Assembly (NCBI GenBank): GCA_016190245.1
Contig: JACPQY010000037.1
Coordinates: forward strand, 1-21,123
DNA: 21,123 nt
DNA from: Nitrospirota bacterium
GTDB taxonomy: Bacteria; JACPQY01
Direction of reading: 5' to 3'
Positions 2,941 through 16,614 of this stretch are shown piece by piece. Both the position numbers and the translations under genes were made by a program. Within the stretch, counting starts at the first letter, position 1, and every line of letters starts with the position of its first letter. The notes under the pieces are model-generated. The model was not told the origin of the DNA. It made no database searches and saw only the letters and a program-made list of their open reading frames with translations.

Positions 2941-2983
2941 GCCCTCCGGGCGGGGAGGGCAGGTGCCGGACCCGGATCGGGTC
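2941..2983. terminator. Two GC hairpins between convergent genes, candidate bidirectional terminator
   Basis: GCCCTCC (2941-2947) pairs with GGAGGGC (2954-2960) around a 6-base loop. GACCCG (2969-2974) pairs with CGGGTC (2978-2983) around GAT. They sit between the stop of the rightward glycosyltransferase and the stop of the leftward radical SAM gene. Neither has a good T-run (only TATT after the second, read rightward), so termination is inferred from position and structure. Confidence 0.4.
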
Positions 2984-4350
2984 TATTGCCCCGCCCAATT
3001 CCGAAGGCCGGCCAGGGCCATCCCCCAGGGGAATGCCGCAGGGTGCCGGATCACTTTCCGAAGATAGCCGGGCCGGAAGTAGTAGCGCCGGTAGGCGCGG
3101 GTTTGGAGACGCCGAAGGAGGGCCGGCGGGAGTTCGGGCAGAGCGAAGCCTCCATCCCCCGTGGAGCTGTCGGCCGCCGGACGTCCCGCCCCGCCATCCG
3201 CCGCCAGCGGTGTGCCCGCTCGTGGAACGGCGATATTGAACGAAGCGAAGTCGGGGTTCAGCTCGCATGCCAGCCCGACGGTCTGCGCGACGGTGGCCTC
3301 GGTCGAGCCGGGCAGGCCCAGCACGAAGTGGGCGCCCACCCGGATCCCAAGTCTCGCACACGAGCGGACGGTCGCCTGGACCTTCTCTATCGGGGCGTCT
3401 CTTCCGAGCCTGCTTAGGAGACCTGCATCGGAGGACTCGACCCCAAACTGAAGAAGGACGCATCCGCTGTGTTTCATCAGATCGAGGAAGGACTCATCCA
3501 GCGTGTCCGCCCTCGCGTACCCATGCCAGGTGAGAGGCCATCTTCGATCCACCAAAGCGTGCAGGATCGTCTCCGTATGGCGACGGGCGGCGCCGAACGT
3601 CATGTCCTTGAAGAAAACGTGACGGTATCCCTGCGAGACGACGGCTTCGACCTCTTCGAGGACGTTATCAGGATCCCGGAACGCGAAGCCGATCCAACCG
3701 CTGTTGCAGTAGGCGCAATGGTGGGGGCAGCCGTACGTTGTGAGGACGCTGGCGAAAGGGGAGGGCACGAAAGGCATGCGGTAGGCGGTACGCCGGAACC
3801 ATTCGTGGCGTGGGAGGGGATAGCGGAAACCGTTCTTCAGCGGCTGCGCCCGGAGCGCGATGTCCCCGCACCGGCCCGCGCGGGCGCTGGGGATCCTGAA
3901 GGTTCCGTTCTCCAGGCGGTCGAACCGGCCTTTCATCCACAGGGCGACGTCCCGTGAAACGAAGTTCGTGAGGAAGCCATCCATGAAGGGGTAGTCGCGG
4001 AGTTTCCGCTCGGGATGGTCGAGCATCGGCTCGCCGATGGCGAAAAGGCGACAGCCCAGGAGCCGACGAATCTCCTCGAGAAACGAGAGGTCTTCGCCCA
4101 TGCTCGGCGCGCTACAGAGGGAGAGCACGGCGTCCGGTTGCAGAGCCGCGATACGTGAGAGGGTTTTCCCCGGGTCCAAGCGGAGAGCGACGGCATCGAT
4201 CACCTCGACGTCCGCCTCGCTCGACAGGATACCGCTCTGAACCAGGAGATCGATCGCCGGCCAGTAGTAGCCCGCTTTGGCCGAGGTGCTGCAGAAGTAG
4301 TCGCGGAGGTAGGGCTTGCGTGCAGGTGGGTTGAGAAGCAGAATCCTCAC
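2983..4350 (-). CDS. Radical SAM protein with B12-binding-type N-terminus (rSAM 5), 455 aa
   Basis: The N-terminus MRILLLNPPARKPYLRDYFC plus alternating strands and helices to about residue 130 matches the cobalamin-binding-like domain of the B12-dependent radical SAM class. The lower-axial DxHxxG motif is absent (IDAVAL is seen), so any cobalamin would be bound His-off. The core follows with TYGCPHHCAYCNS: the CxxxCxxC cluster ligands are C208, C212 and C215. Later motifs are FKDMTF, LLQFGVESSDAGLLSRLGR and HFVLGLPGST. The tail has RAYRRYYFRPGYL, a motif common at the end of such enzymes in lipid and natural-product loci. The expected chemistry is methylation or another radical reaction on an unreactive carbon; the substrate is unknown. 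It starts with GTG 7 bases after the stop of the previous gene and is the last gene of the five-gene operon. Confidence 0.88.
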   Translation of the reverse strand: MRILLLNPPARKPYLRDYFCSTSAKAGYYWPAIDLLVQSGILSSEADVEVIDAVALRLDPGKTLSRIAALQPDAVLSLCSAPSMGEDLSFLEEIRRLLGCRLFAIGEPMLDHPERKLRDYPFMDGFLTNFVSRDVALWMKGRFDRLENGTFRIPSARAGRCGDIALRAQPLKNGFRYPLPRHEWFRRTAYRMPFVPSPFASVLTTYGCPHHCAYCNSGWIGFAFRDPDNVLEEVEAVVSQGYRHVFFKDMTFGAARRHTETILHALVDRRWPLTWHGYARADTLDESFLDLMKHSGCVLLQFGVESSDAGLLSRLGRDAPIEKVQATVRSCARLGIRVGAHFVLGLPGSTEATVAQTVGLACELNPDFASFNIAVPRAGTPLAADGGAGRPAADSSTGDGGFALPELPPALLRRLQTRAYRRYYFRPGYLRKVIRHPAAFPWGMALAGLRNWAGQ

Positions 4351-4357
4351 GTCACGC

Positions 4358-5764
4358 TCAGACCATCCACCGGTACACTCGCCCGATGATCTGGAGGAGG
4401 TGGTCCCACGAGCGGATGTCCCGGAGCAGTGCCAGGAGTTTCTCGGGGCGGAGGTAGAACCTGAGGAAGGCCCGACGTTGGAGGTTCTTCAGCGAGTGTG
4501 GCGTGAAACCCCGTGGCACATACGCGGGTTGGGCATAGCTGGTGGAGGACCCATCCACCTGCTCGAGGCCGTTGCGGCCGCGGATTGTTTCGTAGGCCCG
4601 TGTGCCGGGCAGCGGGTGGAAGAGCATGAACTGGGCCCTTCGAAGGGGAAGATCAAGCGCGAGGCGCACGGTTTGATCCATCTCGTCGCGCGTCTCGTCC
4701 GGGAATCCCAGGATGAAGTAGCCCACCGGGTGGATGCCCGATTCGTGGATCAGGTTCACCCGTTCGCGAATCACGTCGAGGGTCGAGGCCTTTTCGATGT
4801 CCCTCAGGAGGCGGGGGCTTCCCGATTCGATGCCCACGGCCAGCGCGTAGCAACCCGATTGCCTCATGCGGGCAAGGAGGTCCTTGGTGAGCGTGTCCAG
4901 CCGGACGCCGTTCGGGCAGGTCCAGGACAGCTTCAGGTCCGAGGACAGCAGCGCCTCGCAGAATGTCTCGACGTAACGCCGATGCAGAGTGAAGTTGTCG
5001 TCGATCACATGGATCTCACGAATGCCGTGCGCGCGATGCAGATAGGCGATTTCCTCCATCACGTTTTCCACCGAGCGGTAGCGCATCTTGGCGCCGGAGA
5101 TGGTCTGCGCAGCGCAGAAGACGCAGTCATAGGGACAACCGCGGGAGATCGAGATCGGGGCCACCGGGAATTGCTCGTAAAACGCCGCCTGAGGGGCCTT
5201 GGGATACGATTCGGGCTCGAGGAGGTCCCACGAGACCATGGGGAGCTCGTCCAACTCCGCGATTCGGGCGATTCCGTTTCCGTGGAACCCGTTCCCGTTG
5301 TTCCAGAACGCCCCCGGGATGGGGTCACGTGCCAGGGTGTCGAACACGGCTCGTTGGGAACCCGCATCCAACCCCCGCTCCAGGAAGGCGGGAAGGGACT
5401 CCTCGGCCTCTCCGCGAATCCCCAAGTCCACCTCCGGCCCCACCGTGCCCGCGGGATTGGTGGTGGGGTGGGGGCCACCCACCATGGTGAGGATGCCGGG
5501 CCGGGCGAGCTTGATCCCGCTTAGAAGCCTCCTGGTCGCCGCCACATCGGTGGTGAAGCACTGTGTGCCGACCGCATCCGGTTCCCAGGAAAGGACGCGA
5601 CGGAGAAGATCCCGCTCATCAAGGTCGTGGCGGATGGCGTCCAGGATCGCGACTTCGAAGCCGCGCCGGCGGAGGGACGATGCGAGGTATCCCAGCCCAA
5701 TGGGAGGCTGGACCGAGTCCCGAAAACTGTTGGGTTTGACCAGGAGGACGCGTGATCCATTCAT
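4358..5764 (-). CDS. B12-binding-domain radical SAM protein (rSAM 4), 468 aa
   Basis: The start is ATG at 5764-5762, which overlaps the TGA of the upstream gene as ATGA. The open frame continues 59 codons further upstream, but that extension lies inside the neighbour and has no homology-like character. The cobalamin-binding-like domain shows VLLVKPNSF, PIGLGYLASSLRRRGFEV, MVGGPHPT (about 94-101) and IRGEAEESL. The DxHxxG histidine is not in place (LDAIRHD is seen). The radical SAM core has ISRGCPYDCVFC with cluster ligands C210, C214 and C217, then VIDDNF, ALAVGIESGSPRLL and GYFILGFPDET. The C-terminal RAFLRFYLRPEKL is of the same type as in the next gene downstream. It is likely a methylase or other radical enzyme on a lipid-like or isoprenoid-like substrate; that substrate class is inference. 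Confidence 0.9.
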   Translation of the reverse strand: MNGSRVLLVKPNSFRDSVQPPIGLGYLASSLRRRGFEVAILDAIRHDLDERDLLRRVLSWEPDAVGTQCFTTDVAATRRLLSGIKLARPGILTMVGGPHPTTNPAGTVGPEVDLGIRGEAEESLPAFLERGLDAGSQRAVFDTLARDPIPGAFWNNGNGFHGNGIARIAELDELPMVSWDLLEPESYPKAPQAAFYEQFPVAPISISRGCPYDCVFCAAQTISGAKMRYRSVENVMEEIAYLHRAHGIREIHVIDDNFTLHRRYVETFCEALLSSDLKLSWTCPNGVRLDTLTKDLLARMRQSGCYALAVGIESGSPRLLRDIEKASTLDVIRERVNLIHESGIHPVGYFILGFPDETRDEMDQTVRLALDLPLRRAQFMLFHPLPGTRAYETIRGRNGLEQVDGSSTSYAQPAYVPRGFTPHSLKNLQRRAFLRFYLRPEKLLALLRDIRSWDHLLQIIGRVYRWMV

Positions 5765-7374
5765 GGCGCGTAGGCCCTGGTGGGGGCGGCGCCTGGCGGC
5801 CTCGTTGCGTAGGGAAGGGGATAGCCGCCTGCGCTGCTCCGAATCCCCCGGCGCCGATACAAGAGGTTGCCGAGGGCCTCGGCGAGAAACGAGCGCCGAT
5901 GGCGTCGAACGAGGTCCGTCGCGACCTGGAAGAAGCGCCACGGACGCAGCAGGAAACCGGCAAGATAGAATAACGTGAGGCAGGAGAGTCTGAAGAGCCG
6001 CAGAGTTCCGGGACTCAAGGTGGGGTTGAAAGAGGACGCGCGCAAAAGGCTGGTGAAGCAGGCCAGGGACGCATAGTAGTCGTCATCGATCCGAGCGATC
6101 GCGCCCGACTTCCGCAAGTCTTCAAAGAGAGTCGAACCGGGATACGCCGAGAAGGAGTAGACCCCCAAGTCGTGCACCCCCAGAAGGGCCAGCCGCAACG
6201 CAAAGCGGAGCGTGCGCAATAGGTCACCGTGTCCCTCGCCGGGAAAGCCCACGACGACATGCGCCTTGACCGTGTGGCCGGCCCGGATCGCCCCGGCCAT
6301 GGACCTGACCATGCGCTCCAAGTCCACGTGCTTCCGGACTTCCACCAGGGTCCGCACGGAACCGCTTTCGGGCGCGTAGACGAGGCTCCGACAACCTGCC
6401 TCGTACATGCGGCGGGCCACCTCTTCATCCACGCGCTCGGTTCTCGTTCCGGACGGGAGCTGCCAGACGACGGGCACGCGTCTCTCGATCATCGTTCGGC
6501 AGAAGTCCATGATCCATGGGCGGAGCACGATGGCCGTAAGGTCGTAGAAATCGACGCTCTCCACGCCGAATCGCCGGACATACTCCTCGATCTCGTCCAC
6601 CACGTCGGCCGGCGATCGCGTCAGGTACCGTGTCGTCCACATGTTCGGGCTGGAGCAGAAAGTGCATTGAAACGGGCAGCCGCGGCTGGCGAGAAGCGGG
6701 ATGGTTCTTCCCCGGCGCAGCCCCATGCACTGGCCCCTCTCCAGGTAGTTTTCGAGGGGAACGAGGTCCCAGCGGGGGCGGGGGATCGCGTCCAGATCCT
6801 GAAGACGGCGCCGAGGGGCACCGCGAACGAGGCGGGAGCCGCGCCTGGCCACCAAGCCCGGCACCTCGGAGAGGTCGCGTCCGCTCTCGAGAGCACGCGA
6901 CAGATCGATGACCGTTTCCTCCCCCTCGCCCAGGACGCATGCCGCGAGTTCCGGAACGTCCGCGAGCACAACCTCGGGCAGCGCGTTGGCATGTTCACCA
7001 CCGCACACGAGCGGCACATCGGGGAAACGACGGCTGAGGGCGTGCAGCAGTTCCCTTGCAACGGGCCACTCGTGGGAGAAAGGCGCCGATACGCCGATCC
7101 ACAGGGACTTCGGATCGGTGCGCTCCACGACCTCCTGGATGCTCAAGCCGTTTGCGAAGAATCCAGGCCGGTAGCTCGGCGTCCACCGATCGAGTGCCTC
7201 TCCCACGGCATCGATCACGGCCACGCGGTGGCCCGCCGCGGTGAGACTGCCCGCCAGATACGCCTGCGTGAGAGGGGGCGTGCCGTTTCGGGAATACGCA
7301 TCGCGGGGCACTACGGTGGGCGGACGGATCAGCGTGACGAGGGGTCTCAACGGCTGTTCGCGCACTTCCTGCAT
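5761..7374 (-). CDS. B12-binding-domain radical SAM protein (rSAM 3), 537 aa
   Basis: The N-terminal domain has VTLIRPPTVV, PLTQAYLAGSLTAAGHRVAVIDA, VCGGEHANALPE (about 123-134) and LGEGEET (149-154), the usual cobalamin-binding-like pattern. The lower-ligand His is missing. The radical SAM core carries SRGCPFQCTFCSSPNMW with ligands C233, C237 and C240, followed by VDFYDLTAI, LVYAPESGS and HVVVGFPGEG. An unusual C-terminal region of about 100 residues is hydrophobic (LFRLSCLTLFYLAGFLLRPWRFF) and then Arg-rich, suggesting membrane association and a lipidic substrate. ATG at 7374 lies 14 bases after the upstream stop. Its own stop overlaps the next start by 4 bases, implying translational coupling. 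Confidence 0.9.
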   Translation of the reverse strand: MQEVREQPLRPLVTLIRPPTVVPRDAYSRNGTPPLTQAYLAGSLTAAGHRVAVIDAVGEALDRWTPSYRPGFFANGLSIQEVVERTDPKSLWIGVSAPFSHEWPVARELLHALSRRFPDVPLVCGGEHANALPEVVLADVPELAACVLGEGEETVIDLSRALESGRDLSEVPGLVARRGSRLVRGAPRRRLQDLDAIPRPRWDLVPLENYLERGQCMGLRRGRTIPLLASRGCPFQCTFCSSPNMWTTRYLTRSPADVVDEIEEYVRRFGVESVDFYDLTAIVLRPWIMDFCRTMIERRVPVVWQLPSGTRTERVDEEVARRMYEAGCRSLVYAPESGSVRTLVEVRKHVDLERMVRSMAGAIRAGHTVKAHVVVGFPGEGHGDLLRTLRFALRLALLGVHDLGVYSFSAYPGSTLFEDLRKSGAIARIDDDYYASLACFTSLLRASSFNPTLSPGTLRLFRLSCLTLFYLAGFLLRPWRFFQVATDLVRRHRRSFLAEALGNLLYRRRGIRSSAGGYPLPYATRPPGAAPTRAYAP

Positions 7375-7388
7375 CCGCGTGTCGGGCT

Positions 7389-8711
7389 CTACGCCGCGGC
7401 CTGTCGCGAGGACCTCGGCCCGGGAACCCCGTCCGCCTCGCGTCTCTTGGCGACGATGTTGTAGAGGTCAAACGGGACGAAGCTTCGCGGCGTCATGTAG
7501 GCCATGTGGCAATTGGATGCCTCTTCGAGGTCGAGCGCGCCGTTCGCCTGAAATTTCTCGATCGAGAGGAACCGGATGAAACTGGGCGTGGGCAGTTCTT
7601 GAAAGCGCAGGAGCCGCACTGCGGACCACGCCAGTCTGGCCAACACGTCGAGGTGCCGGAGAGCGCGCAGAGGATTCAGCATCCGACTGAGCGGAAAGTA
7701 GTCCCCGTTCTTGAAGACAAGAATCATCGGCAAGGTGCTCACCTTTTGCTGCAGATTGGGAATCCTAAGGAGCCGGTGGAGACCTGCCAGCACGCGCATC
7801 GTCACGAGGAAATCACCCCGGCGGATTCGCCCGCCCGTGTATCGTTCGATCTCGTCCAGCATGTCCGACACGTGGGTTTCCTCGTCCGGCAGCTTGGCGC
7901 GGCTCTGGTAGGTGTGGGGGTAGAGACTTGCCCAGAACACGTTGGGTTCGCGGCCCAGAAATCGCAGGATTTCGCCGATCTGGGGCGTGTTGACGCCCTT
8001 GGCCATCATGATCGTCAATTGGATCTTGAATCCCCTCTCGCTCAGGGTCCGGATCGCCCTCAACTTCGCCTCGAGGAACGCGGCTCCCCTGAAGCGCTGC
8101 TCGGCGTCCCGGTCGAACCCGTCGAACTGCACCACGACCCATCGCAGACCGGCTTCCCAAAGCGTGTTGACGTATGCCGGATCGCCCAGACGAAGGCCGT
8201 TGGTGGAGAGGCGGGGGATGTAGCCCCGCTCGATCACGGTCCGGATGAGCGCGGGCAGATCCTTCCTCATCGTGGGCTCGCCGCCGATCAGGACGACGTT
8301 GGGTTGCCTCACCCGCTCCCAGAAGTTGCGGCCGGCCGGCGGCAGCCGGGATCGGATCTCGTCGATCGTCGGCTCCGGTCTCGAGATTTGATTCGCGTCC
8401 GCGAAGCACACGGGGCAATCGAGGTTACAGCGTTGCGTCACGTCGATCATGATGTTGTACGTCTTCTCGAGACACTCGTCGCAGGCCTCGCCCTTCAGGC
8501 ATTCGAACGTCGTGCACCAGGCGTCGCGGCCGGCGATCTTCGTGAGGTCGTGGTAAAGGGCCGAATCCTTCCAGTACAGGGCCTTCCGGGGGCCGTGGTC
8601 GGGACACGAGCTGCGCACCGTCATGCCGGAGACCTCTGCCGCGAGGACGGCCGGGACGACCCTCTCGCACTGAGGGCAGATGCTATGGGTCCGGTGAACG
8701 GCGGTCTCCAC
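7389..8711 (-). CDS. Tes-like radical SAM protein (tetraether lipid synthase / MJ0619-like family), 440 aa
   Basis: The open frame extends up to 9320, but that part overlaps the upstream radical SAM gene. The chosen GTG at 8711 lies 2 bases after the upstream TGA. The protein begins with a metal-site-like region ICPQC (C12, C15) and SCPDHG (C36), then YWKDS and a Cys-rich stretch (C66, C71, C77, C80). The radical SAM motif RCNLDCPVCFADAN follows (C95, C99, C102), with GGEPTMRKDL and LSTNGLRL. This order (rubredoxin-like CPxC/CPxHG, extra Cys, CxxxCxxC, GGEPT) matches my recollection of archaeal Tes and its bacterial relatives, which form C-C bonds between lipid chains. The C-terminal part ends NCHMAYMTP...VPFDLYN and has only one Cys (C401). 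In Tes-type proteins I recall further Cys there, so the auxiliary cluster may be reduced. The family call is from recognition, not alignment. Confidence 0.8.
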   Translation of the reverse strand: METAVHRTHSICPQCERVVPAVLAAEVSGMTVRSSCPDHGPRKALYWKDSALYHDLTKIAGRDAWCTTFECLKGEACDECLEKTYNIMIDVTQRCNLDCPVCFADANQISRPEPTIDEIRSRLPPAGRNFWERVRQPNVVLIGGEPTMRKDLPALIRTVIERGYIPRLSTNGLRLGDPAYVNTLWEAGLRWVVVQFDGFDRDAEQRFRGAAFLEAKLRAIRTLSERGFKIQLTIMMAKGVNTPQIGEILRFLGREPNVFWASLYPHTYQSRAKLPDEETHVSDMLDEIERYTGGRIRRGDFLVTMRVLAGLHRLLRIPNLQQKVSTLPMILVFKNGDYFPLSRMLNPLRALRHLDVLARLAWSAVRLLRFQELPTPSFIRFLSIEKFQANGALDLEEASNCHMAYMTPRSFVPFDLYNIVAKRREADGVPGPRSSRQAAA

Positions 8712-8713
8712 GC

Positions 8714-10237
8714 TCAGGTATGCGCGGCGCTGGTAGCGGGATGATCCCCCCCCTCTCCCCTCCACCCGGTCATCGCCAGATCCATCGCTCGCTTTTCCAC
8801 CAGACCTTTGAAGAAGAAGTTCTTGGCCCTGAGCCGCGCCACCGGGCGGTACATCTTCGCCAGCACCCGGGCCCAGCCCGGCGCCCCGTATTCGCGCGCT
8901 TTGTCGTCCAGGAATAGGGAGGTGAAGTACAGGGCCTCGTAGAGAGCCTTGTTCTGGGGGAAGAGGCGGCTCTGGTCGTAGCGGAAGTCCGCCCAGCCGT
9001 CCAGCGTCGAGGGAGGCCGCAGCCCGTGCTGCAGCGCGATCTCGAAAAGCTCCGTGCCGGGGTAGGGCGTGAACGTGTATACCGGGGACACTCGCACGTT
9101 CCGATTCAAGGCCATAAGCTTGAACATGAGATCCACGGTCATTCTGACTTCTTCGAGTGTCTCCGTCGGGATCCCGCACATGAAGCTGTAGAACAAGGTG
9201 ATCGGGAATCGGGCCAGCCGGCGCGTGACGTCCAAAATATCCTCGATGGTCCCGTCCTTGTGAATGGCTTCCCGCACTCTTGGCGATCCGGACTCGATGC
9301 CGACGGTCAGCCTGCCGCAACCACTGTCGAGTATCCGGCCGTAGTCGTCATCGCTCATTCTCTTCAAGCCGAGGATATCGACGCCCTGGACCTGCCAGGT
9401 GACGCCGAGCGGCTTCAGGGCCTCCGCGATCGCGAGAGCACGCTTCCGGTTCGTGAAGAACATGTCGTCCACGAAGTACACGTCCTCCACGCCATGCCGC
9501 TCAACCACCTGCCGGACCTGTTCGATCGTCCTCTCCGGTGAGAGCGCGCGCCAGCGGCGCCGGCTGAATACCACGTTGTAGCAGTAGGAGCAGTTCAGTG
9601 GGCAACCCCTCGAACTCTGAAAGCACAGGGAGCGCCGCCCGTTGTAGCGGGGCTGGTAGCGGTCCATCTCCACCAGGTGCCAAGGCGGCGCCGGCAAGTC
9701 GTCCAGACGTCCCAGGGGCGCCCCTGGCATCCCCTTGACCTGGTCTCCCTCTTTGTACCAGACACCGGGGATGTCCGTCGGTCTGCGGTTCGCCGCGAGC
9801 GCGCGGGCCAAGTCCCGCAGCGGATACTCGCCCTCGCCCTCCACGACATAGTCCACGAGAGGGTCCGCCGCCGTCTGCTGCGGCAAGAGGCTCGCGTGAA
9901 TCCCCCCCCAGACGATCGGCAGCTCCGGGCGAAGGCGTCGGACCAGCCGACACATCTCCAGACTCGAGCGAATCATGGGACCCGTGAACGCCGTGACCCC
10001 GACCAGAAAGACATCTGGGGTAAGCCGGCGGATCAGCTCGGATTCCCAGTCTTCGACATGGAGTCGCCGGTCGAAGAAGCGGACGGGAAACTCCTGGGCC
10101 ACCAGCGCGGACGCATGGAGGAGCGCCACCGGCAGCGTGGGGCTGGAACGGAGATCATCCATGTGACCCACCGCCGGTTGGAGCAGCAGGATTGTACCTC
10201 GCGTGCTTGCCCCCGGAACACCTTCGTAGACTGACAC
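8714..10237 (-). CDS. B12-binding-domain radical SAM protein (rSAM 1), first gene of the radical SAM operon, 507 aa
   Basis: The cobalamin-binding-like domain shows ILLLQPAVGH, LPVALLHASALVAQEFPVRFFDRRL, VWGGIHASLLPQ (about 109-120) and VEGEGEYPL. The classic DxHxxG is not present. The core has SSRGCPLNCSYCYN with cluster ligands C212, C216 and C219, then VYFVDDMFF, LTVGIESGSPRV and YSFMCGIPTET. The region after about 430 is helical and basic. The start is GTG at 10237, with TAGGAA just upstream and a candidate sigma70 promoter at 10250-10278. The stop is 2 bases before the Tes-like gene. It probably performs a radical methylation or rearrangement; the substrate is unknown. The C8 runs at 9902-9909 and 8746-8753 are inside the frame. 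Confidence 0.9.
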   Translation of the reverse strand: MSVYEGVPGASTRGTILLLQPAVGHMDDLRSSPTLPVALLHASALVAQEFPVRFFDRRLHVEDWESELIRRLTPDVFLVGVTAFTGPMIRSSLEMCRLVRRLRPELPIVWGGIHASLLPQQTAADPLVDYVVEGEGEYPLRDLARALAANRRPTDIPGVWYKEGDQVKGMPGAPLGRLDDLPAPPWHLVEMDRYQPRYNGRRSLCFQSSRGCPLNCSYCYNVVFSRRRWRALSPERTIEQVRQVVERHGVEDVYFVDDMFFTNRKRALAIAEALKPLGVTWQVQGVDILGLKRMSDDDYGRILDSGCGRLTVGIESGSPRVREAIHKDGTIEDILDVTRRLARFPITLFYSFMCGIPTETLEEVRMTVDLMFKLMALNRNVRVSPVYTFTPYPGTELFEIALQHGLRPPSTLDGWADFRYDQSRLFPQNKALYEALYFTSLFLDDKAREYGAPGWARVLAKMYRPVARLRAKNFFFKGLVEKRAMDLAMTGWRGEGGDHPATSAAHT

Positions 10238-10281: not shown

Positions 10282-10290
10282 GAGGGCGGG
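10282..10290. repeat. Left copy of the flanking direct repeat (target-site duplication)
   Basis: GAGGGCGGG directly abuts the left inverted repeat and is identical to 10814-10822. The match extends to 11 bp (GAGGGCGGGCG, to 10292) if the end of the element is drawn two bases further in. Confidence 0.6.
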
Positions 10291-10326
10291 CGGGAGTTTA
10301 TGGAATCTTCAGGGGCCTATGCGATC

Positions 10327-10347
10327 CCCCTCCTTTGTAAGGAGGGG
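10327..10347 (+). repeat. Left subterminal hairpin of the DUF559 element
   Basis: CCCCTCC (10327-10333) and GGAGGGG (10341-10347) pair around TTTGTAA. A related hairpin in inverse orientation occurs at 10749-10769. It lies 15 bases beyond the nuclease stop, so it could also stop or stabilise the nuclease transcript. Confidence 0.6.
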
Positions 10348-10361
10348 TAAGGGGAGGTCGA

Positions 10362-10724
10362 TCACCATCGCAGGCGTGCCTGCAAATCCTCGAGCACACC
10401 CTCAAGATTGCCGAGTACATCGGTGTTGGCATAGCGCACAACCAACAGCCCCAAGCTCTCAAGGTAGGTCTGCCTGGCTGCATCTTTTCGGGTCTGTTGG
10501 GGAAATGCGTGAACGTCCCCGTCAACCTCGATCACGATCCGCCGCTCCGGACAGAAGAAGTCCACGATATACGGCCCAATGCCGTGTTGACGCCTGAACT
10601 TGAGGCCCTCGATCTGCCGATTCCGGAGATGGGACCAGAGCTGTTTTTCAGCCGAGGTCATCTGACCTCGAAGTTGTTGCTTTCTGCGAAGATTCTGTCG
10701 GGATCCCTTGAGCGTTCTCGGCAT
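10362..10724 (-). CDS. DUF559 domain (Vsr/PDxK-like) endonuclease, 120 aa
   Basis: The protein is a complete, typical-length DUF559 member. It has LRRKQQLRGQMTSAEKQLWSHLRNRQIEGLKFRRQHGIGPYIVDFFCPERRIVIEVDG. The acidic residues D55, E67 and D69 and R44/R45 fit the Vsr-like nuclease fold. The family's DNA substrate is not well defined. The ATG at 10724 is chosen because the family starts at this point. An in-frame ATG at 10838 would translate the terminal repeats of the element and is rejected. The gene is the only cargo of the inverted-repeat unit 10291-10813, and its stop lies just inside the left hairpin. It may act in defence, repair or mobility of the unit; none of these is shown. Confidence 0.85.
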   Translation of the reverse strand: MPRTLKGSRQNLRRKQQLRGQMTSAEKQLWSHLRNRQIEGLKFRRQHGIGPYIVDFFCPERRIVIEVDGDVHAFPQQTRKDAARQTYLESLGLLVVRYANTDVLGNLEGVLEDLQARLRW

Positions 10725-10748
10725 CCGCTCGGACTCTACCCCACCTGG

Positions 10749-10769
10749 CCTCCCCTTACAAAGGGGAGG
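10749..10769 (-). repeat. Right subterminal hairpin of the DUF559 element
   Basis: Read leftward, CCTCCCC and GGGGAGG pair around the same TTTGTAA core as the left copy. It precedes the nuclease start by about 25 bases. If the frame is read through it, it gives the FPPLCKGRPGG-type translation I recall often next to DUF559 genes. Confidence 0.6.
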
Positions 10770-10813
10770 AAATCCTGCTCTCCTCACCACGAAGGAAATT
10801 CCATAAACTCCAG

Positions 10814-10822
10814 GAGGGCGGG
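10814..10822. repeat. Right copy of the flanking direct repeat (target-site duplication)
   Basis: GAGGGCGGG directly abuts the right inverted repeat and is the same sequence in the same orientation as 10282-10290. The identity continues to 10824. Confidence 0.6.
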
Positions 10823-10956: not shown

Positions 10957-12732
10957 TCAGGGTTGCTTGGTGGTGGGCCGAGCCGGTGCGTCGAGGGTGT
11001 CGAGTTCCAGGCGCAGGATTCCGACAGAGGTGACGACGTAAAGAGACCGGCCATCGTTCGAGAGAGTAATCTGGTGCCCCCGGGAACCCAGATTCAGGGC
11101 CGAGGTGGCGATACCGGTTGCGAGGTCGAGCCTGAGGAGGTCGCCCGTGAAGTGGTTGAGGACGTAGGCGGTTCTCCCGTCCGGCGCGCAGCGGGCGAAG
11201 CGGACGCCCCGCTCCGAGGGGATGCTGTGGACGAGAGAGAGGTCATCGGTCCGGCGGACGTCCACCCGGCCGTGCACCATGTGGACCTCCAAGAGGAGGC
11301 CGGTGGCCGGACAAGCCTCGAGGAGGACGAACATGTCGTTGTCCAGCGGGGCGACCTCCTCGGGCGGGGTCGCATCCATCGCGCCGCGGAGGAGGCGCGT
11401 CCCGCGGTCGTCGTGGCGCTGGCGGAGTTTCGACGTGAGGTCAGAGAGATCAAGACGGCGGATCTTTCGTTCCAGTCGGAGCGAGCCTTCGCGCAGGCTC
11501 GTGGAGACGACCCATGTGGCCGCGCGAAGGTTCGCGAGGGGCCCCGTCTGGCCGTTGAGCCGTTCCCGGTACTTGGCCGCGAGGAGCCGCCCAAGGGGGC
11601 GGAGGTCGCAGCACTCGCGCAGGGCCTGAGAAAAATCGGCTCGCATGGGCGTGCCTGTCGTCAACCAGTACCGTCCTGGGGGAGCCACGGCAGCCCCCTT
11701 GATGCGCTCACCATCGGTGTCGACCCAGCGAACGGGGCCATCGAGGGGTTCGAGGATACCCACCGCGCCCGCCTCGTCCACCAGGATCACCCCAGGGGTC
11801 CCTTCGATCCCGAGGGCGTGGAGGGGCCTCCTCGCAGGGATCTCGCGCATCACCGAGAGGGTCTTCTCGTCCAGGATGAGGAAGCGGTGCCCGTGAATGT
11901 CCGGCAGGATCACCACTCCGGCCTCGCAATCCACGCGGAAGGAGTCGCCGGCGCCTCCACTCTCCAGGACGGCGGTGGTCCGGAGCGAGGCGGGGTCGAA
12001 GCGAACGAGCGACGGCACCCCTTGGATCCCGTTCCGAGATGCGGCGAGCAGCTCTTTGCCGTTGCAGGCCTCGCGGACGTACCGGATCGCGTTGGTGTTC
12101 ACGATGCCGGCGGGCCGGGGCATGTTGAAGAGGACGACCGGCCGTACCCCGGGTTGATCGAGCACGCGGTTGCGAACGTCCGATGTCGCGTAGGTGGAGG
12201 ACCAGAGTGTGCCGGTGGCGAGAACCCAGGAGAGCGCGAAGAAGACAAGCGCGGCATCCGAGACCGGTCGGGGTTCCCGCCGGCGGGTTGCGAAGAGCCC
12301 GAGCCAGAAGGGGATGCAGAGCATCGCGAGGAGCGTGGCCATGTCGTAGTACGCGTGCCAGATCGTGACGAAGGTTGCTCCCCACAGCGCGGCCAGTGCC
12401 GCGCGGGGGTACCGAGGCTGGGCGATGACCCACGCGAATGCGGCGGTCGCGGCCAGGACGGTCATGGTGACCGGCCTGGGACCCCGCACGATGACGCCGG
12501 CCTGAAACGCCGTGATCGTGGCGTAGTACAGAAACCGGAGGACGGGTCGCGCTTGCAGGCGGCGCAACGGCCGGAGGATCAGGGGGGCGGGGAGGAAGAG
12601 AAGCGGGAGAAAGAAGATCGCACCGGAATCGAGGAGGGGCGCGCTGAGGAGGAAGGCGATCGGAAAGAGATGAACCGTGTAGACAAACAGCGCCGCGCCC
12701 GCCGGGACGCAGGCTGAAACAAAACCTCTCAA
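10957..12732 (-). CDS. Polytopic membrane protein with C-terminal beta-propeller (propeller B), 591 aa
   Basis: The start is TTG at 12732, overlapping the TGA of the upstream cytochrome gene as TTGA. The frame is open to 12867, but that part lies inside the neighbour. About six to eight hydrophobic segments fill residues 1-180. From about 195 onward the chain is soluble, with blades such as SLVRFDPASLRTTAVLE, FLILDEKTLSVMREI, FARCAPDGRTAYVLNHFTGDLLRLDL and ITLSNDGRSLYVVTSVGILRLEL. These recall YncE/NHL-like propellers. The junction (GVRPVVLFNMPRPAGIVNTNAIRYVRE) aligns by eye with the same region of the propeller at 16611-18293. No catalytic motif or haem site is seen. It is probably the membrane partner of the two cytochromes, perhaps a substrate- or protein-docking subunit (inference). 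Confidence 0.8.
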   Translation of the reverse strand: MRGFVSACVPAGAALFVYTVHLFPIAFLLSAPLLDSGAIFFLPLLFLPAPLILRPLRRLQARPVLRFLYYATITAFQAGVIVRGPRPVTMTVLAATAAFAWVIAQPRYPRAALAALWGATFVTIWHAYYDMATLLAMLCIPFWLGLFATRRREPRPVSDAALVFFALSWVLATGTLWSSTYATSDVRNRVLDQPGVRPVVLFNMPRPAGIVNTNAIRYVREACNGKELLAASRNGIQGVPSLVRFDPASLRTTAVLESGGAGDSFRVDCEAGVVILPDIHGHRFLILDEKTLSVMREIPARRPLHALGIEGTPGVILVDEAGAVGILEPLDGPVRWVDTDGERIKGAAVAPPGRYWLTTGTPMRADFSQALRECCDLRPLGRLLAAKYRERLNGQTGPLANLRAATWVVSTSLREGSLRLERKIRRLDLSDLTSKLRQRHDDRGTRLLRGAMDATPPEEVAPLDNDMFVLLEACPATGLLLEVHMVHGRVDVRRTDDLSLVHSIPSERGVRFARCAPDGRTAYVLNHFTGDLLRLDLATGIATSALNLGSRGHQITLSNDGRSLYVVTSVGILRLELDTLDAPARPTTKQP

Positions 12733-14801
12733 GGACGGGGCAGGGTTGCGGTTTTCGAGGCGATCACCGAGGCAGGCACGACGAGATCCGCATTCCCGGC
12801 CATCCAGGCCGCGAAGTCGTCGTTGATCCGCCGGTACATCCATCGGGCCTCGACGGTGACGGGCCAATCGCCGTCGCCGATGGAGGGGAGGGCGTAGATG
12901 TCTTCGACCGACCCGCGTGGCGGAATGGATCGAGTCCGCGCGATCGTTTTTGTCAGAAAGATCTCGTGCCGTTCCACCGGGGCTCCGTTCTCGTACAACT
13001 CCCGGCCGCCGAGGTTGTGGTGCGAATCCTCGGGGTCCGAGTGGGAGAATAGCACATCTCCCGAGGCGCCGCGGACCACCACCTCCTGCCAGACCCGGAC
13101 AAGGTCGAGGGGGCCGCCAGGGAAGGTGTGGCCGATGGTCCGATTCGTCGTCCGGACTTGGAGCCGCCGGGGGTCAGCCTGCGAAGCGTCGCGGGCCTCC
13201 AGGCGAACGTCCATCTCCAAGTGTTGGCCGCCCGTCGCAACGGCGCGGGCACGGAGCATGCGCGGGAGGTCGAAATAGAGCCGGTAGGCCTTGAAGGATT
13301 CGTCGAACGCCGCCTCGTGGAGTCGCAGCATTTTCAGGTTCCCGTCGAGCCATCGGCGCGTCTCTCCCGCGAAGGCCTGAAGGGATTCCTCGTCGTCCGG
13401 CGCGGAAAGGGCGAGGATCGGAAGCGCCTCATTGATCCCGAAGAAGCGGTGGTCCTTCCAACTGTACCTGTAGGCGTCCTTCTGGAGCCGGATCATGTGG
13501 CAGTCGGTGCATCCCAAGGACTCGCGGTACTCCGACTCCTTCCATGAATCGAACTGTTCCAGGTGAATGCGCGGTTCGCTCTCCTCGCCCACGTGCAGGG
13601 CGACGCGGTGGCACGGGGCGCACAGTTGACTCGAGCGGACGAGTGGCCGGCTGAAGTCGCCAAGGTGGGTGCGGGTCCGTCGAAGTATCAGGTGCTCCTT
13701 CTCTTCCTTTGGGAGGTCGAGAGGATCCAGCACGCCCGTGATAAGCCGGTAGGAACCGTTTCCGGCCTTGTCCGCGGACTCCATCTGATGGCACACCCGA
13801 CACGAGACTCCCTCGCGCCGGGCGATGGCGTCCCGATCATGAAGGGAAGCGAGGTCGGGAGAGAACGCCGCGGTGGGGTCGTGACAGGACGCGCAGAAGC
13901 GGGCGATCTCCGGCCCCGCGATGCTCACGGCGTTCTCGAGCGAGCGCACGTACGGCAGGTTCCGCGCCGAATAGGCATGGGTGGACTGTCTCCATTGCTC
14001 GAAGACAACATCGTGGCAGCCCGCGCAGTCCTTCGATCGACCCAGCGTGTGGGACGAGAGGGGTTCGAACGCCAGGCCGTACGCTTTTGCGTACGTCTGC
14101 GTGGGGAACAGGCGGGGGCCACGGGCATCGGCTTCGATGCGGTCCGTGTTCGCCCGCATCCGTCCGAGCGCGAGGGCGAGGAGGATGCCGGCGGCGGCGA
14201 TCCCGAGGCGGAGCGCGTGGAAGGGCAGGGGGGTCGCGGGGGCGAGCCAACGTCGCCAGCGACCCCGCTCCAGCACGTGAACGGCCATGAGGAGGGCACC
14301 GGCGAGCGCCAGCGGCCCGTGGAGGGAGCGATGGAAGGATGTGAACCGGATGGCGCTCTTTCCCATGACCGTGTAGAGGCCGTTGGCGAGCGACACGGCG
14401 ATCAGGAGCCAGAGCAGGGCGGCCCAGAGGCGGGGAGCCGCGTCCGCCGAATCGGAAGTGCGCGCGTACCGCAGGGCAAGGAGGGCGCCGAGCAAGAGAG
14501 CGCCGAGGAAGGTCACGAGGGAAGGTGTCGGAGAGATGAGGACCCAGATCACAAAGGGCGTGAAGGCCACACCGAGCCAGACGAGCTTCCGGCTGAAATG
14601 CCGCGCGAGGTGGGCATGGACGTAGACGAGAGTCAGAGCGAAGAGGAACGCCCCCATCGTGACGTGCAGGTCCACGGTTCTCGGGAAGAGCCGTCCGGCG
14701 GTGGGAGCGAAGTACAGCAGGGCGCCGCTCGCGGAGACGAGGGCGAAGAGGAGGAGATAGCCCGCCGCGGGGAGCTTCGCCCAGCCGGTTCTACTGGGCA
14801 C
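12729..14801 (-). CDS. Membrane b-type/pentahaem cytochrome c fusion (cytochrome B), 690 aa
   Basis: Residues about 12-213 form six or seven transmembrane segments with intramembrane His (H46, H62, H64, H157, H161, H175) placed like b-haem ligands in cytochrome b561/DUF4405-type proteins. The soluble part has five CxxCH haem c sites: CAGCH (259), CASCH (303), CRVCH (334), CAPCH (394) and CTDCH (431). A C-terminal beta-sandwich-like domain has IGHTFPGGPLDLVRVWQEV (about 556-573), a pattern frequent after multihaem domains. It probably passes electrons between the quinone pool and an extracytoplasmic acceptor or donor. It is a full-length paralogue of the neighbour at 14791-16614. The start is GTG at 14801, 11 bases inside the end of that gene; the stop overlaps the TTG of propeller B. 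Confidence 0.87.
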   Translation of the reverse strand: MPSRTGWAKLPAAGYLLLFALVSASGALLYFAPTAGRLFPRTVDLHVTMGAFLFALTLVYVHAHLARHFSRKLVWLGVAFTPFVIWVLISPTPSLVTFLGALLLGALLALRYARTSDSADAAPRLWAALLWLLIAVSLANGLYTVMGKSAIRFTSFHRSLHGPLALAGALLMAVHVLERGRWRRWLAPATPLPFHALRLGIAAAGILLALALGRMRANTDRIEADARGPRLFPTQTYAKAYGLAFEPLSSHTLGRSKDCAGCHDVVFEQWRQSTHAYSARNLPYVRSLENAVSIAGPEIARFCASCHDPTAAFSPDLASLHDRDAIARREGVSCRVCHQMESADKAGNGSYRLITGVLDPLDLPKEEKEHLILRRTRTHLGDFSRPLVRSSQLCAPCHRVALHVGEESEPRIHLEQFDSWKESEYRESLGCTDCHMIRLQKDAYRYSWKDHRFFGINEALPILALSAPDDEESLQAFAGETRRWLDGNLKMLRLHEAAFDESFKAYRLYFDLPRMLRARAVATGGQHLEMDVRLEARDASQADPRRLQVRTTNRTIGHTFPGGPLDLVRVWQEVVVRGASGDVLFSHSDPEDSHHNLGGRELYENGAPVERHEIFLTKTIARTRSIPPRGSVEDIYALPSIGDGDWPVTVEARWMYRRINDDFAAWMAGNADLVVPASVIASKTATLPRP

Positions 14802-16614
14802 GGTCGACCGGCCCTTCGAGGACGATCTGCTGCCGGGCGGCCGCCATTTCCACGGCCTCGAATCCGTCGCGTGCCCCGGGGAGATCGGGATACGCCCAGA
14901 GCATGAAAGGTGAGTTGATACGGCTGTACAACCACCGTGCCGTCAGCACGATCCGCGGCCCCACGCCGGACGGGATCCGGACGTCGAAGTCGTCCTCGAT
15001 GGTGCGTCCCGGCTCGACCACCCGCTTCGAGACGCGCGACTTCTCCCACACGCGGTGGCGGAGGATCGGCCGGCCCGCCGAATCGAAGAAGGTGCCGCCG
15101 AGGCGATGGATGCCGTCCTCCGTGTGGTAGATGCCGCCGGGTCGCCCGCTCGTGAAGAAGACCCGCCCGTCGGCATCCGCGGCGCGGAGCTCCAGCCAGA
15201 CATCGTACATGTCAAGCACGCCTGTCGGGAACGGGTGGCCGATGCCGACGTTGGACGTGTGGACCCGGACCGGAAGGTTGGCTTCGACGCCGGCCTGTTC
15301 GAGTGCCTCGATGCTGACCACGAGCCAGAACGCACGGCTCGGACGGGCGTCGTTTCCCGTACGCAGCTCCCAGAACGAGTCCGTTGCCGCGGGCGGGAAA
15401 TTCCCGCTGAGCCAACTCAGCGTGGAGGCGAGGCGCTCCCGGTCCTCGGTGAGGCGCGGCAACACGACGTTGGCGGCCAGGAAGAGATGCGGCCGGTCCG
15501 ATCCGGATTTCGAGAAGGGGGTCTGCAGCCGCATGTGACAGTCCACACAGCCCAGCCGTTCGAACGCGCCGGTCTGGGCGGCGGGGATATGCTCCTGGTG
15601 GCAACTCCGGCAGAGTGCGTCGGCTTTGAGCAGATCGGGCCGGAGAGCCCGACCATGGCCCAGTGGATTGAGCTCGATCAGGTAACGGTCGATACCCGCA
15701 GGCTCCATTTCACCATCGGGCGGGAACATGGTCAGATGAGCCGCCGGCAGGCCGAGGGTGTAACCTTTTCGGGGGCCGGCGTAGCCGGCCTCGGGCCCGG
15801 CCGCCACGGAGGTCTCGTCAGCGATGTGGGCTTGGTCCATGGCATGACAGACGAGACACCCGAACGCCGGCCGGGGATGGTTGGGCGGCGCTGCGCCGAG
15901 CGCCTCGCCGGGAGCGTGGCAGCTCGCGCAGAAACGCGTGGATTCCGCCCCTCGTTCTTCTTCGAGGAGCGCCACGATCTTGCGGAAGTGAGGCGCCGTG
16001 GGCGCGAGGCGGTGGGTGCCGGCCTCGAACTCTCGAGTGAGCTCGGCATGGCAACCGTCCGTGGCCCCGCACGTCTTCGTGGCGGACAAGAGGCGGAGGT
16101 CGGTGTTCGTTGGGGGCGACGTTTCGCCGGCGAGCGCCGCCTCGAAGTCCACGGTGACAGGTTGCGTGGGGCGTGTGGCGGCAAGCGCGCCGAGGCCGGC
16201 GAGACCCGCGAGGAGGAGCGTCAGAGCGGCGCGTCGAGGGGCGGGCGCCAGACGTGTCCAGGCCGGCGCCACGTGAACGAGGGCGACCGCGGCGGCACCG
16301 TACGCCAGCCAGCGGTGGACGAGAATCCGGTCCACGTGGTGGCCCGCGCCCGGGGCGATGAGAAGGCCCGTCGCGAGCGCGCCGCCCCACAGGAGGGCGG
16401 ACAACCAACCTGCGGCAACGCCCGACCTCCGGCCCTGCCGCTTCTGCTGTACGTGCCCGCGCAGGTAGAGGGCCAGCAGCGCGACCGTTAGGGCTCCCTC
16501 GACCGGGTGGAGGATGAGATTCAATCGGTAGGGCGTGGTCCAGGTTTCGGTGAGGTGGATGTACAGGCCCGAGAGGATTGTGAGCAGCAGGCCGGTGAAG
16601 GCGGCCGCGGTCAC
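14791..16614 (-). CDS. Membrane b-type/multihaem cytochrome c fusion (cytochrome A), 607 aa
   Basis: Four or five transmembrane segments (about 3-20, 33-52, 69-88, 97-117, 130-147) carry His residues (H36, H54, H92, H93, H100, H114) that could bind b haems. The soluble part has four standard sites: CASCH (229), CLVCH (253), CRSCH (335) and CVDCH (356). The first site is atypical, CGATDGCH (C182, C188, H189), a CX5CH spacing. The C-terminal domain has NVGIGHPFPTGVLDMYDVWLELR (about 455-477) and WLYSRINSPFMLW, both matched in cytochrome B. The two proteins therefore share the same architecture, although A has fewer membrane segments. The start GTG at 16614 overlaps the stop of propeller A (GTGA). 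The expected role is transmembrane electron transfer in a complex with its coupled neighbours. Confidence 0.87.
   Translation of the reverse strand: MTAAAFTGLLLTILSGLYIHLTETWTTPYRLNLILHPVEGALTVALLALYLRGHVQQKRQGRRSGVAAGWLSALLWGGALATGLLIAPGAGHHVDRILVHRWLAYGAAAVALVHVAPAWTRLAPAPRRAALTLLLAGLAGLGALAATRPTQPVTVDFEAALAGETSPPTNTDLRLLSATKTCGATDGCHAELTREFEAGTHRLAPTAPHFRKIVALLEEERGAESTRFCASCHAPGEALGAAPPNHPRPAFGCLVCHAMDQAHIADETSVAAGPEAGYAGPRKGYTLGLPAAHLTMFPPDGEMEPAGIDRYLIELNPLGHGRALRPDLLKADALCRSCHQEHIPAAQTGAFERLGCVDCHMRLQTPFSKSGSDRPHLFLAANVVLPRLTEDRERLASTLSWLSGNFPPAATDSFWELRTGNDARPSRAFWLVVSIEALEQAGVEANLPVRVHTSNVGIGHPFPTGVLDMYDVWLELRAADADGRVFFTSGRPGGIYHTEDGIHRLGGTFFDSAGRPILRHRVWEKSRVSKRVVEPGRTIEDDFDVRIPSGVGPRIVLTARWLYSRINSPFMLWAYPDLPGARDGFEAVEMAAARQQIVLEGPVDRAQ

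Follow-up and report, generated by a model that had tools for sequence, protein, structure and literature searches.

A DUF559 nuclease gene paired with triplex-type repeats across bacteria and nested in a transposon-like element of a Nitrospirota genome

DUF559 nuclease genes are paired with triplex-type repeats, and this pairing recurs across bacterial phyla, E. coli and gonococcus included. Here we describe one such unit in the window, by which we mean the whole 21,123-nt stretch of Nitrospirota DNA that was analysed. The triplex repeats with DUF559 form a general inner layer, around which the outer inverted ends with their 9-bp duplication add a second layer that is lineage-specific. With a probability of about 0.6, we favour a reading in two nested layers, in which the inner DUF559 would be the cognate nuclease of the triplex repeats and the outer layer a transposon. 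BoxC/PIT/TM is a decades-old orphan repeat family for which DUF559 is now the likely partner enzyme; such repeats occur in hundreds of bacterial genomes, including E. coli K-12, and their origin or an enzyme acting on them has gone unreported since the 1990s in the open-licence literature.

The element in the window and its copies in the same genome

The element spans positions 10291–10813 and is bounded by 16-bp inverted ends that are identical at 15 of 16 positions, the left end CGGGAGTTTATGGAAT at 10291–10306 on the plus strand and the right end ATTCCATAAACTCCAG at 10798–10813 on the minus strand. An exact 9-bp target-site duplication, GAGGGCGGG, directly abuts both ends, with its left copy at 10282–10290 and its right copy at 10814–10822 (neither assigned to a strand). 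The original prediction had placed a DUF559 gene between these inverted and direct repeats, and its coordinates proved exact. It had also allowed the direct repeat to be read as 11 bp; this 11-mer is present, but the extra 2 bp overlap the left end at its terminal CG, whereas the 9-bp version abuts both ends exactly. The inverted ends and the direct repeat are beyond chance because each is the sole case of its kind in the 21-kb window: no other perfect 14-bp inverted repeat has arms at most 650 bp apart, and 9-mers repeated at a spacing of 532 bp occur only within the 11-mer direct repeat. The ends also recur in the genome, where the end pattern with at most one mismatch gave five matches against none for the reversed control pattern.

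The DUF559 gene occupies 10362–10724 on the minus strand (PF04480, E = 1e-33) and encodes 120 aa from an ATG at 10724 to a stop at 10362, with the EDxHD-type active-site residues intact. A longer open reading frame would cross the upstream hairpin (hairpin B, below); ATG 10724, which directly follows the tail of repeat B, is the likely start. As the gene starts after the tail of repeat B and stops before the tail of repeat A, it fills the space between the repeat tails. No transposase is encoded inside 10291–10813, and the suggested search for one with matching ends found none in the same genome, whose assembly is 85% complete.

The predicted anatomy of a transposed element is borne out by the inverted ends, the duplication and the existence of gene-less copies. 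Besides the window, the outer end occurs on contigs C38, C63, C71 and C12. The C38 copy (25116–26785) is the gene-less form that the original prediction had proposed to look for; between its two outer ends lie hairpin B and hairpin A, separated by about 16 bp that replace the gene. Inverted ends with a target duplication of fixed length, by which MITE-type elements are recognised, are thus found in the window with 9 of 9 bases duplicated and in C38 with 7 of 9 (CAGGGCGTT/CAGGGTATT). On C63 the DUF559 gene is truncated at its 5′ side and is accompanied by hairpin A and one outer end, and C71 and C12 carry one solitary outer end each. The whole element has 43 matches in the genome when weak ones are counted, and the significant ones are mostly gene-less A- or B-type hairpins, single or in inverted doublets (e.g. 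C83:39626–39713); the TTTGTAA hairpins of the inner pair are also found at about 12 gene-less loci. No empty site was found for this copy; in the only genome of the same family the flanking gene lacks a close counterpart, the best one having 30% identity.

The outer layer is most likely a transposon that is non-autonomous, has CTGGAGTTT... ends and a 9-bp duplication, and depends on a DDE transposase acting in trans. It shares with the MITEs of DDE insertion sequences its outer ends, 9-bp duplication, gene-less copies and lack of its own transposase, but differs from them in that it holds a nuclease–repeat pair; the parent insertion sequence was not found. A Tn5/IS4-like insertion sequence sits in the hairpin B loop of the C38 copy (L054:1178–2659), a type of target already known for some insertion sequences in REPs; having ends of its own (GGCTTGTCATTACCCACAT) and lying in this loop, it was discarded as the origin of the outer ends. 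The solitary end on C12 adjoins an IS3-type gene, and a second end was not seen there.

Triplex-type repeats and the DUF559 nuclease

The inner inverted pair of hairpins with a TTTGTAA core, also part of the original prediction, is present at 10327–10347 and 10749–10769, as perfect 9-bp stems with folding energies of −9.3 and −9.6 kcal/mol (z of −2.5 and −2.8), each pairing a pyrimidine arm with a purine arm. Both hairpins continue into a tail. Repeat A (10327–10357, plus strand) consists of arm1 CCCCTCCTT (10327–10335), a loop (10336–10338), arm2 AAGGAGGGG (10339–10347), the spacer TAA and arm3 GGGGAGG (10351–10357), which is the mirror of GGAGGGG, and its tail points toward the gene. Repeat B (10739–10769, minus strand) consists of arm1 CCTCCCCTT, the loop TGT, arm2 AAGGGGAGG, the spacer CCA and arm3 GGTGGGG, which mirrors GGGGAGG except that T stands opposite A, and its tail points toward the gene start. 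In A and B alike, arm3 mirrors the purine arm with G opposite G and A or T opposite A, which, with the pyrimidine–purine hairpin, is the form of the BoxC/PIT/TM repeats.

Across loci the layout is the same, arm1–loop–arm2 followed by a spacer, usually of 3 nt, and the third arm. Among 147 repeats with an asymmetric arm2, arm3 is closer to the mirror of arm2 than to its direct copy by 84:16 (p = 2.6e-12), and a reading of arm3 as a direct repeat of arm2 was rejected on this better fit. The bases of arm3 opposite A are A (107), T (95), C (5) and G (4), and opposite G they are G in 770 of 787 cases. From the mirror symmetry and this pairing rule, a purine-motif intrastrand triplex is predicted, and by their sequence the repeats beside DUF559 are motifs of this BoxC/PIT/TM class. 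A G3×4 motif occurs in 67 of 126 repeats, and a G-quadruplex is possible as an alternative fold; as the main reading it leaves the mirror rule unexplained, and NMR evidence argues against it for the E. coli motif (PMC4666352). No Rfam family matched the repeats. After arm3, TAGAG or TCGA comes next in the repeats of the window genome, a feature that is not general in other genomes (compare the GTAG-type foot of REPs). An extra mini-hairpin stands between arm2 and arm3 at loci L209, L196, L185, L216 and L134, several of which are from Alphaproteobacteria.

In a set of relatives comprising one genome per family across bacteria, nearly all of the stand-alone DUF559 genes that were read start just 3′ of a GC-rich hairpin whose tail is G-rich, and they frequently end just ahead of an inverted copy of it, and a scan of named genomes added 80 loci, for example from Planctomycetes, Chloroflexi, Nitrospirae, Omnitrophica, Elusimicrobia and Proteobacteria. 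We compared 113 complete DUF559 loci with 211 control genes from the same loci, asking for a repeat that obeys the strict triplex rule, faces the gene and lies within 220 nt. Such a repeat is found at 81% of the DUF559 loci and 6% of the controls (p = 3e-44), on both sides at 49% and 0%, respectively, and in 0.5% of shuffled flanks, while about one-fifth of the DUF559 loci have no strict repeat. The GC hairpins that the original prediction mentioned next to DUF559 genes elsewhere thus follow a general rule. The 5′ flank also matches the reverse complement of the 3′ flank, with a median score of 25 for the 113 loci and 11 for 237 other genes of these loci (p = 2.6e-27), and the repeat tails point toward the gene in a ratio of 139:37 (p = 4e-15). 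Upstream, the repeat tail stops shortly ahead of the start codon, with a median of 46 nt between hairpin and domain. Repeats on the 5′ and 3′ sides of one gene resemble each other more than repeats taken from different genes (24.6 versus 14.5; the own partner has a median rank of 1.5 of 41), and similarity between DUF559 proteins follows similarity between their repeats (Mantel rho 0.30, p = 0.0025). The inner unit itself shows no target duplication where it borders the flanking DNA.

In E. coli, triplex repeats lie on the 3′ side of the DUF559 gene, ycjD, and score 51–55 bits with the model made from DUF559 flanks. A clean empty site was rejected for E. coli, where ycjD and its repeats stand in the place of eefRABCD and the other allele is that operon (PMC12817139).

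The residues E66, D68, H72 and D81 are invariant in 56 DUF559 sequences, and a structure model built from 56 window and locus sequences has a pLDDT of 87. The closest structure is 3hrl, the N. gonorrhoeae protein NGO0050 (Z 16.7, rmsd 1.0), followed by the homing endonuclease I-Bth0305I (PDB 3r3p; Z 12.7, with a profile match at E = 5.7e-6) and Vsr (Z about 11; 10.8 for 1vsr); Holliday-junction resolvases score no higher than Z 7.7, a range where common folds also score. The modelled DUF559 thus has the fold of I-Bth0305I and Vsr, and it combines this fold with the E, D, H and D residues typical of the EDxHD homing endonucleases. EDxHD enzymes are known as homing endonucleases (PMC3943268), and one DUF559 gene has already been placed in the EDxHD family (PMC9403480). 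I-Bth0305I shares fold and active-site residues with DUF559 but is encoded in a phage intron and combines an extended DNA-binding region with a single long target site, whereas DUF559 is a protein of about 120 aa encoded between repeats. Vsr likewise shares the fold; DUF559 differs from it in that no methylase partner was seen and in its score with the Vsr family model (17.5 bits, against a cutoff of 97.9). The DUF559 gene of another gonococcal record is the same as 3hrl over the aligned region and has triplex-type repeats on both flanks. These gonococcal repeats are direct rather than inverted (L324:1075–1110 and 1690–1725).

Gene, repeat and outer ends in other genomes

A covariance model detected repeats in 23 of the 28 families that have strong DUF559 and in 24 of the 117 that lack it (odds ratio 17.8, p = 1.7e-9, with G+C content uncontrolled). 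No such enrichment is seen in genomes whose DUF559-like domains are all weak and mostly fused, of which 0 of 23 have at least four repeat copies. The 24 genomes, out of 117 without strong DUF559, that still carry the repeats include the one from the same family as the window, with 45 matches; DUF559 is therefore not needed for the persistence of the repeats once they are present. Among 14 further DUF559-carrying genomes, the model found repeats in 13, at 2 to 143 per genome. Within Stenotrophomonas, the repeat occurs in all nine genomes that carry strong DUF559 (in one of them as a fragment at a contig end) and in 3 of 52 others (p = 1e-8, for lineages that are not all independent), and at least 60 repeat copies are reached only in genomes with DUF559; because these genomes are related, there are fewer independent events than 9/9 suggests. 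The site ahead of nadE holds DUF559 in 5 of 61 Stenotrophomonas genomes. Many of the Stenotrophomonas loci L262–L283 without DUF559 have GTAG-type REP-like repeats where others have DUF559 and triplex repeats.

The outer ends follow a different distribution. Inverted ends outside the repeats exceed the 95% level of the null in only 6 of 65 two-sided DUF559 units, and they were rejected as a general trait of these units. The original prediction suggested that DUF559 may mobilise or maintain its own repeat; the gene is tied to the tailed inner hairpins rather than to the 16-bp ends. The inner unit is nested in unrelated inverted ends in three genomes, namely the window genome, G117 and G019. In G019, the nested form includes gene-less doublets of 116 bp, with 8-bp duplications (CTATTTAG and TTAATTAG) in two copies and less clear ones in others. 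G117 has 24 DUF559 matches, many of them broken and several within elements with terminal inverted repeats of the type GGTAGTGTCAAAA..., and the same ends also hold a Y1 transposase gene between REP-type hairpins (L316:1500–2100, C183). The DUF559–triplex and Y1–REP units of G117, having the same ends around them, therefore use one vehicle. At the G117 loci L107, L111 and L112, the first half of DUF559 is replaced by a different hairpin repeat (of the CCCCTCACC...CTCTCCC type).

Known repeat systems and the role of the nuclease

The TM repeats, formerly BoxC and PIT (Holder et al. 2015), have been described in more than 260 genomes, with 23 copies in E. coli K-12; they block polymerase in vitro, a triplex has been demonstrated in vitro for the E. 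coli motif, and their loci are unstable (PMC4666352). That report gives no link to mobile elements, no common neighbour gene and no enzyme, and the words 'endonuclease' and 'ycjD' are absent from its text (PMC4666352). The published motif (Hoyne 2000; Holder 2015) and the repeats described here are alike in their C-rich arm, G-rich arm, short spacer and mirror arm, in being intergenic and in forming inverted pairs; they differ in that the former was published without a partner gene and the latter are tied to DUF559. Open-licence papers linking DUF559 to inverted repeats were not found, and an earlier report elsewhere is possible. The likeness to RAYT/REP systems drawn in the original prediction holds for the arrangement: a gene flanked by an inverted dispersed repeat (on both sides at 49% of the DUF559 loci, on at least one at 81%), gene-less doublets, a repeat type peculiar to each genome, genes and repeats that occur together both inside a genus and across genera, and, in G117, identical transposon ends around either pair. 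It does not extend to the enzyme, since RAYT is an HUH (Y1) transposase whereas DUF559 is an EDxHD nuclease with the Vsr/I-Bth0305I fold. As to the repeats, a GTAG-type tetranucleotide foot is typical of REPs and a third, triplex arm of the repeats at DUF559.

We tentatively propose that DUF559 may be a structure-specific nuclease for the intrastrand triplex that spreads its own gene and large numbers of gene-less repeats across bacteria, which would define a class of mobile element, parallel to RAYT/REP, whose enzyme is Vsr-like and whose target is three-stranded. The unit of about 450 bp, with DUF559 between inverted triplex repeats whose tails point inward, would be the source of the gene-less repeats found genome-wide. 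DUF559 could recognise the hairpin or triplex in single-stranded or extruded DNA, for example at replication forks, and cut at the repeat, whereupon repair would copy the repeat, or the repeat and the gene, to new places. It would in this way play the part that RAYT plays for REPs, with a Vsr/EDxHD-type nuclease in place of the HUH enzyme, while in this lineage the inner unit would ride in a non-autonomous transposon moved in trans by a DDE transposase. Against this reading stand the repeats of genomes without strong DUF559, the missing target duplication at the inner unit, the DUF559 loci that have no strict repeat, the relatedness of the Stenotrophomonas genomes, the direct orientation of the gonococcal repeats, and the role in mismatch repair proposed for a Caulobacter DUF559 protein (PMC12907096). 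A partner nuclease could explain the instability of the repeat loci, would add a nuclease-driven counterpart to RAYT/REP, and makes the origin of the repeats testable via E. coli ycjD and 3hrl, for which a crystal structure exists.

The generality of the pairing bears directly on whether DUF559 and the hairpins are passengers of a MITE-like unit that a DDE transposase moves in trans, the hairpins spreading only within such elements. Several DDE insertion-sequence families typically make 9-bp duplications, the units in the window, G117 and G019 lie inside terminal inverted repeats, duplications of 8–9 bp flank the copies in the window, C38 and G019, and the outer ends vary between genomes, all of which is consistent with pure cargo. 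The rarity of the outer ends (6/65) against a pairing that is general, and the match of the two repeats at a gene both with one another and with the encoded protein, make this explanation unlikely. A role for DUF559 in repair or resolution, clearing or processing triplexes and hairpins at forks and so making the repeats tolerable (maintenance or addiction) rather than spreading them, agrees with the Vsr fold and, more weakly, with that of the Holliday-junction resolvases, and the polymerase block and unstable loci of the motif (PMC4666352) point the same way. Moreover, the Caulobacter DUF559 protein VsrA is behind an SOS response in vivo when a methylase is missing and has a proposed role in mismatch repair (PMC12907096). 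We nevertheless find this role doubtful, because repeat-rich genomes without DUF559 exist and DUF559 in G117 acts like a multicopy, decaying mobile element.

Two further explanations carry far less weight with us than the nested reading. That the repeats control DUF559 in cis, as terminators or translational elements, with the gene-less copies being unrelated G-rich hairpins, would suit a tail that stops just before the start codon; it is very unlikely given that an inverted copy also lies 3′ of the stop codon, that gene-less hairpins elsewhere in this genome share arms, loop and tail, that no Rfam family matches, and that neither promoter nor terminator activity was detected in published tests (cited in PMC4666352). 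Weak PADLOC matches of DUF559 (the best, E = 1e-4, to a region of DpdF) would suit a nuclease of anti-phage or restriction type with incidental repeats. This is highly improbable, as no methylase or defence gene was recognised adjoining the window gene and DUF559 is tied to one specific repeat class.

On the left of the element, the window has a row of minus-strand genes (2983–10237) resembling B12-binding radical SAM proteins, a likeness backed by Pfam only for 8714–10237. On its right (12729–16614), inspection by eye gave two large membrane proteins that bear several CxxCH haem motifs.
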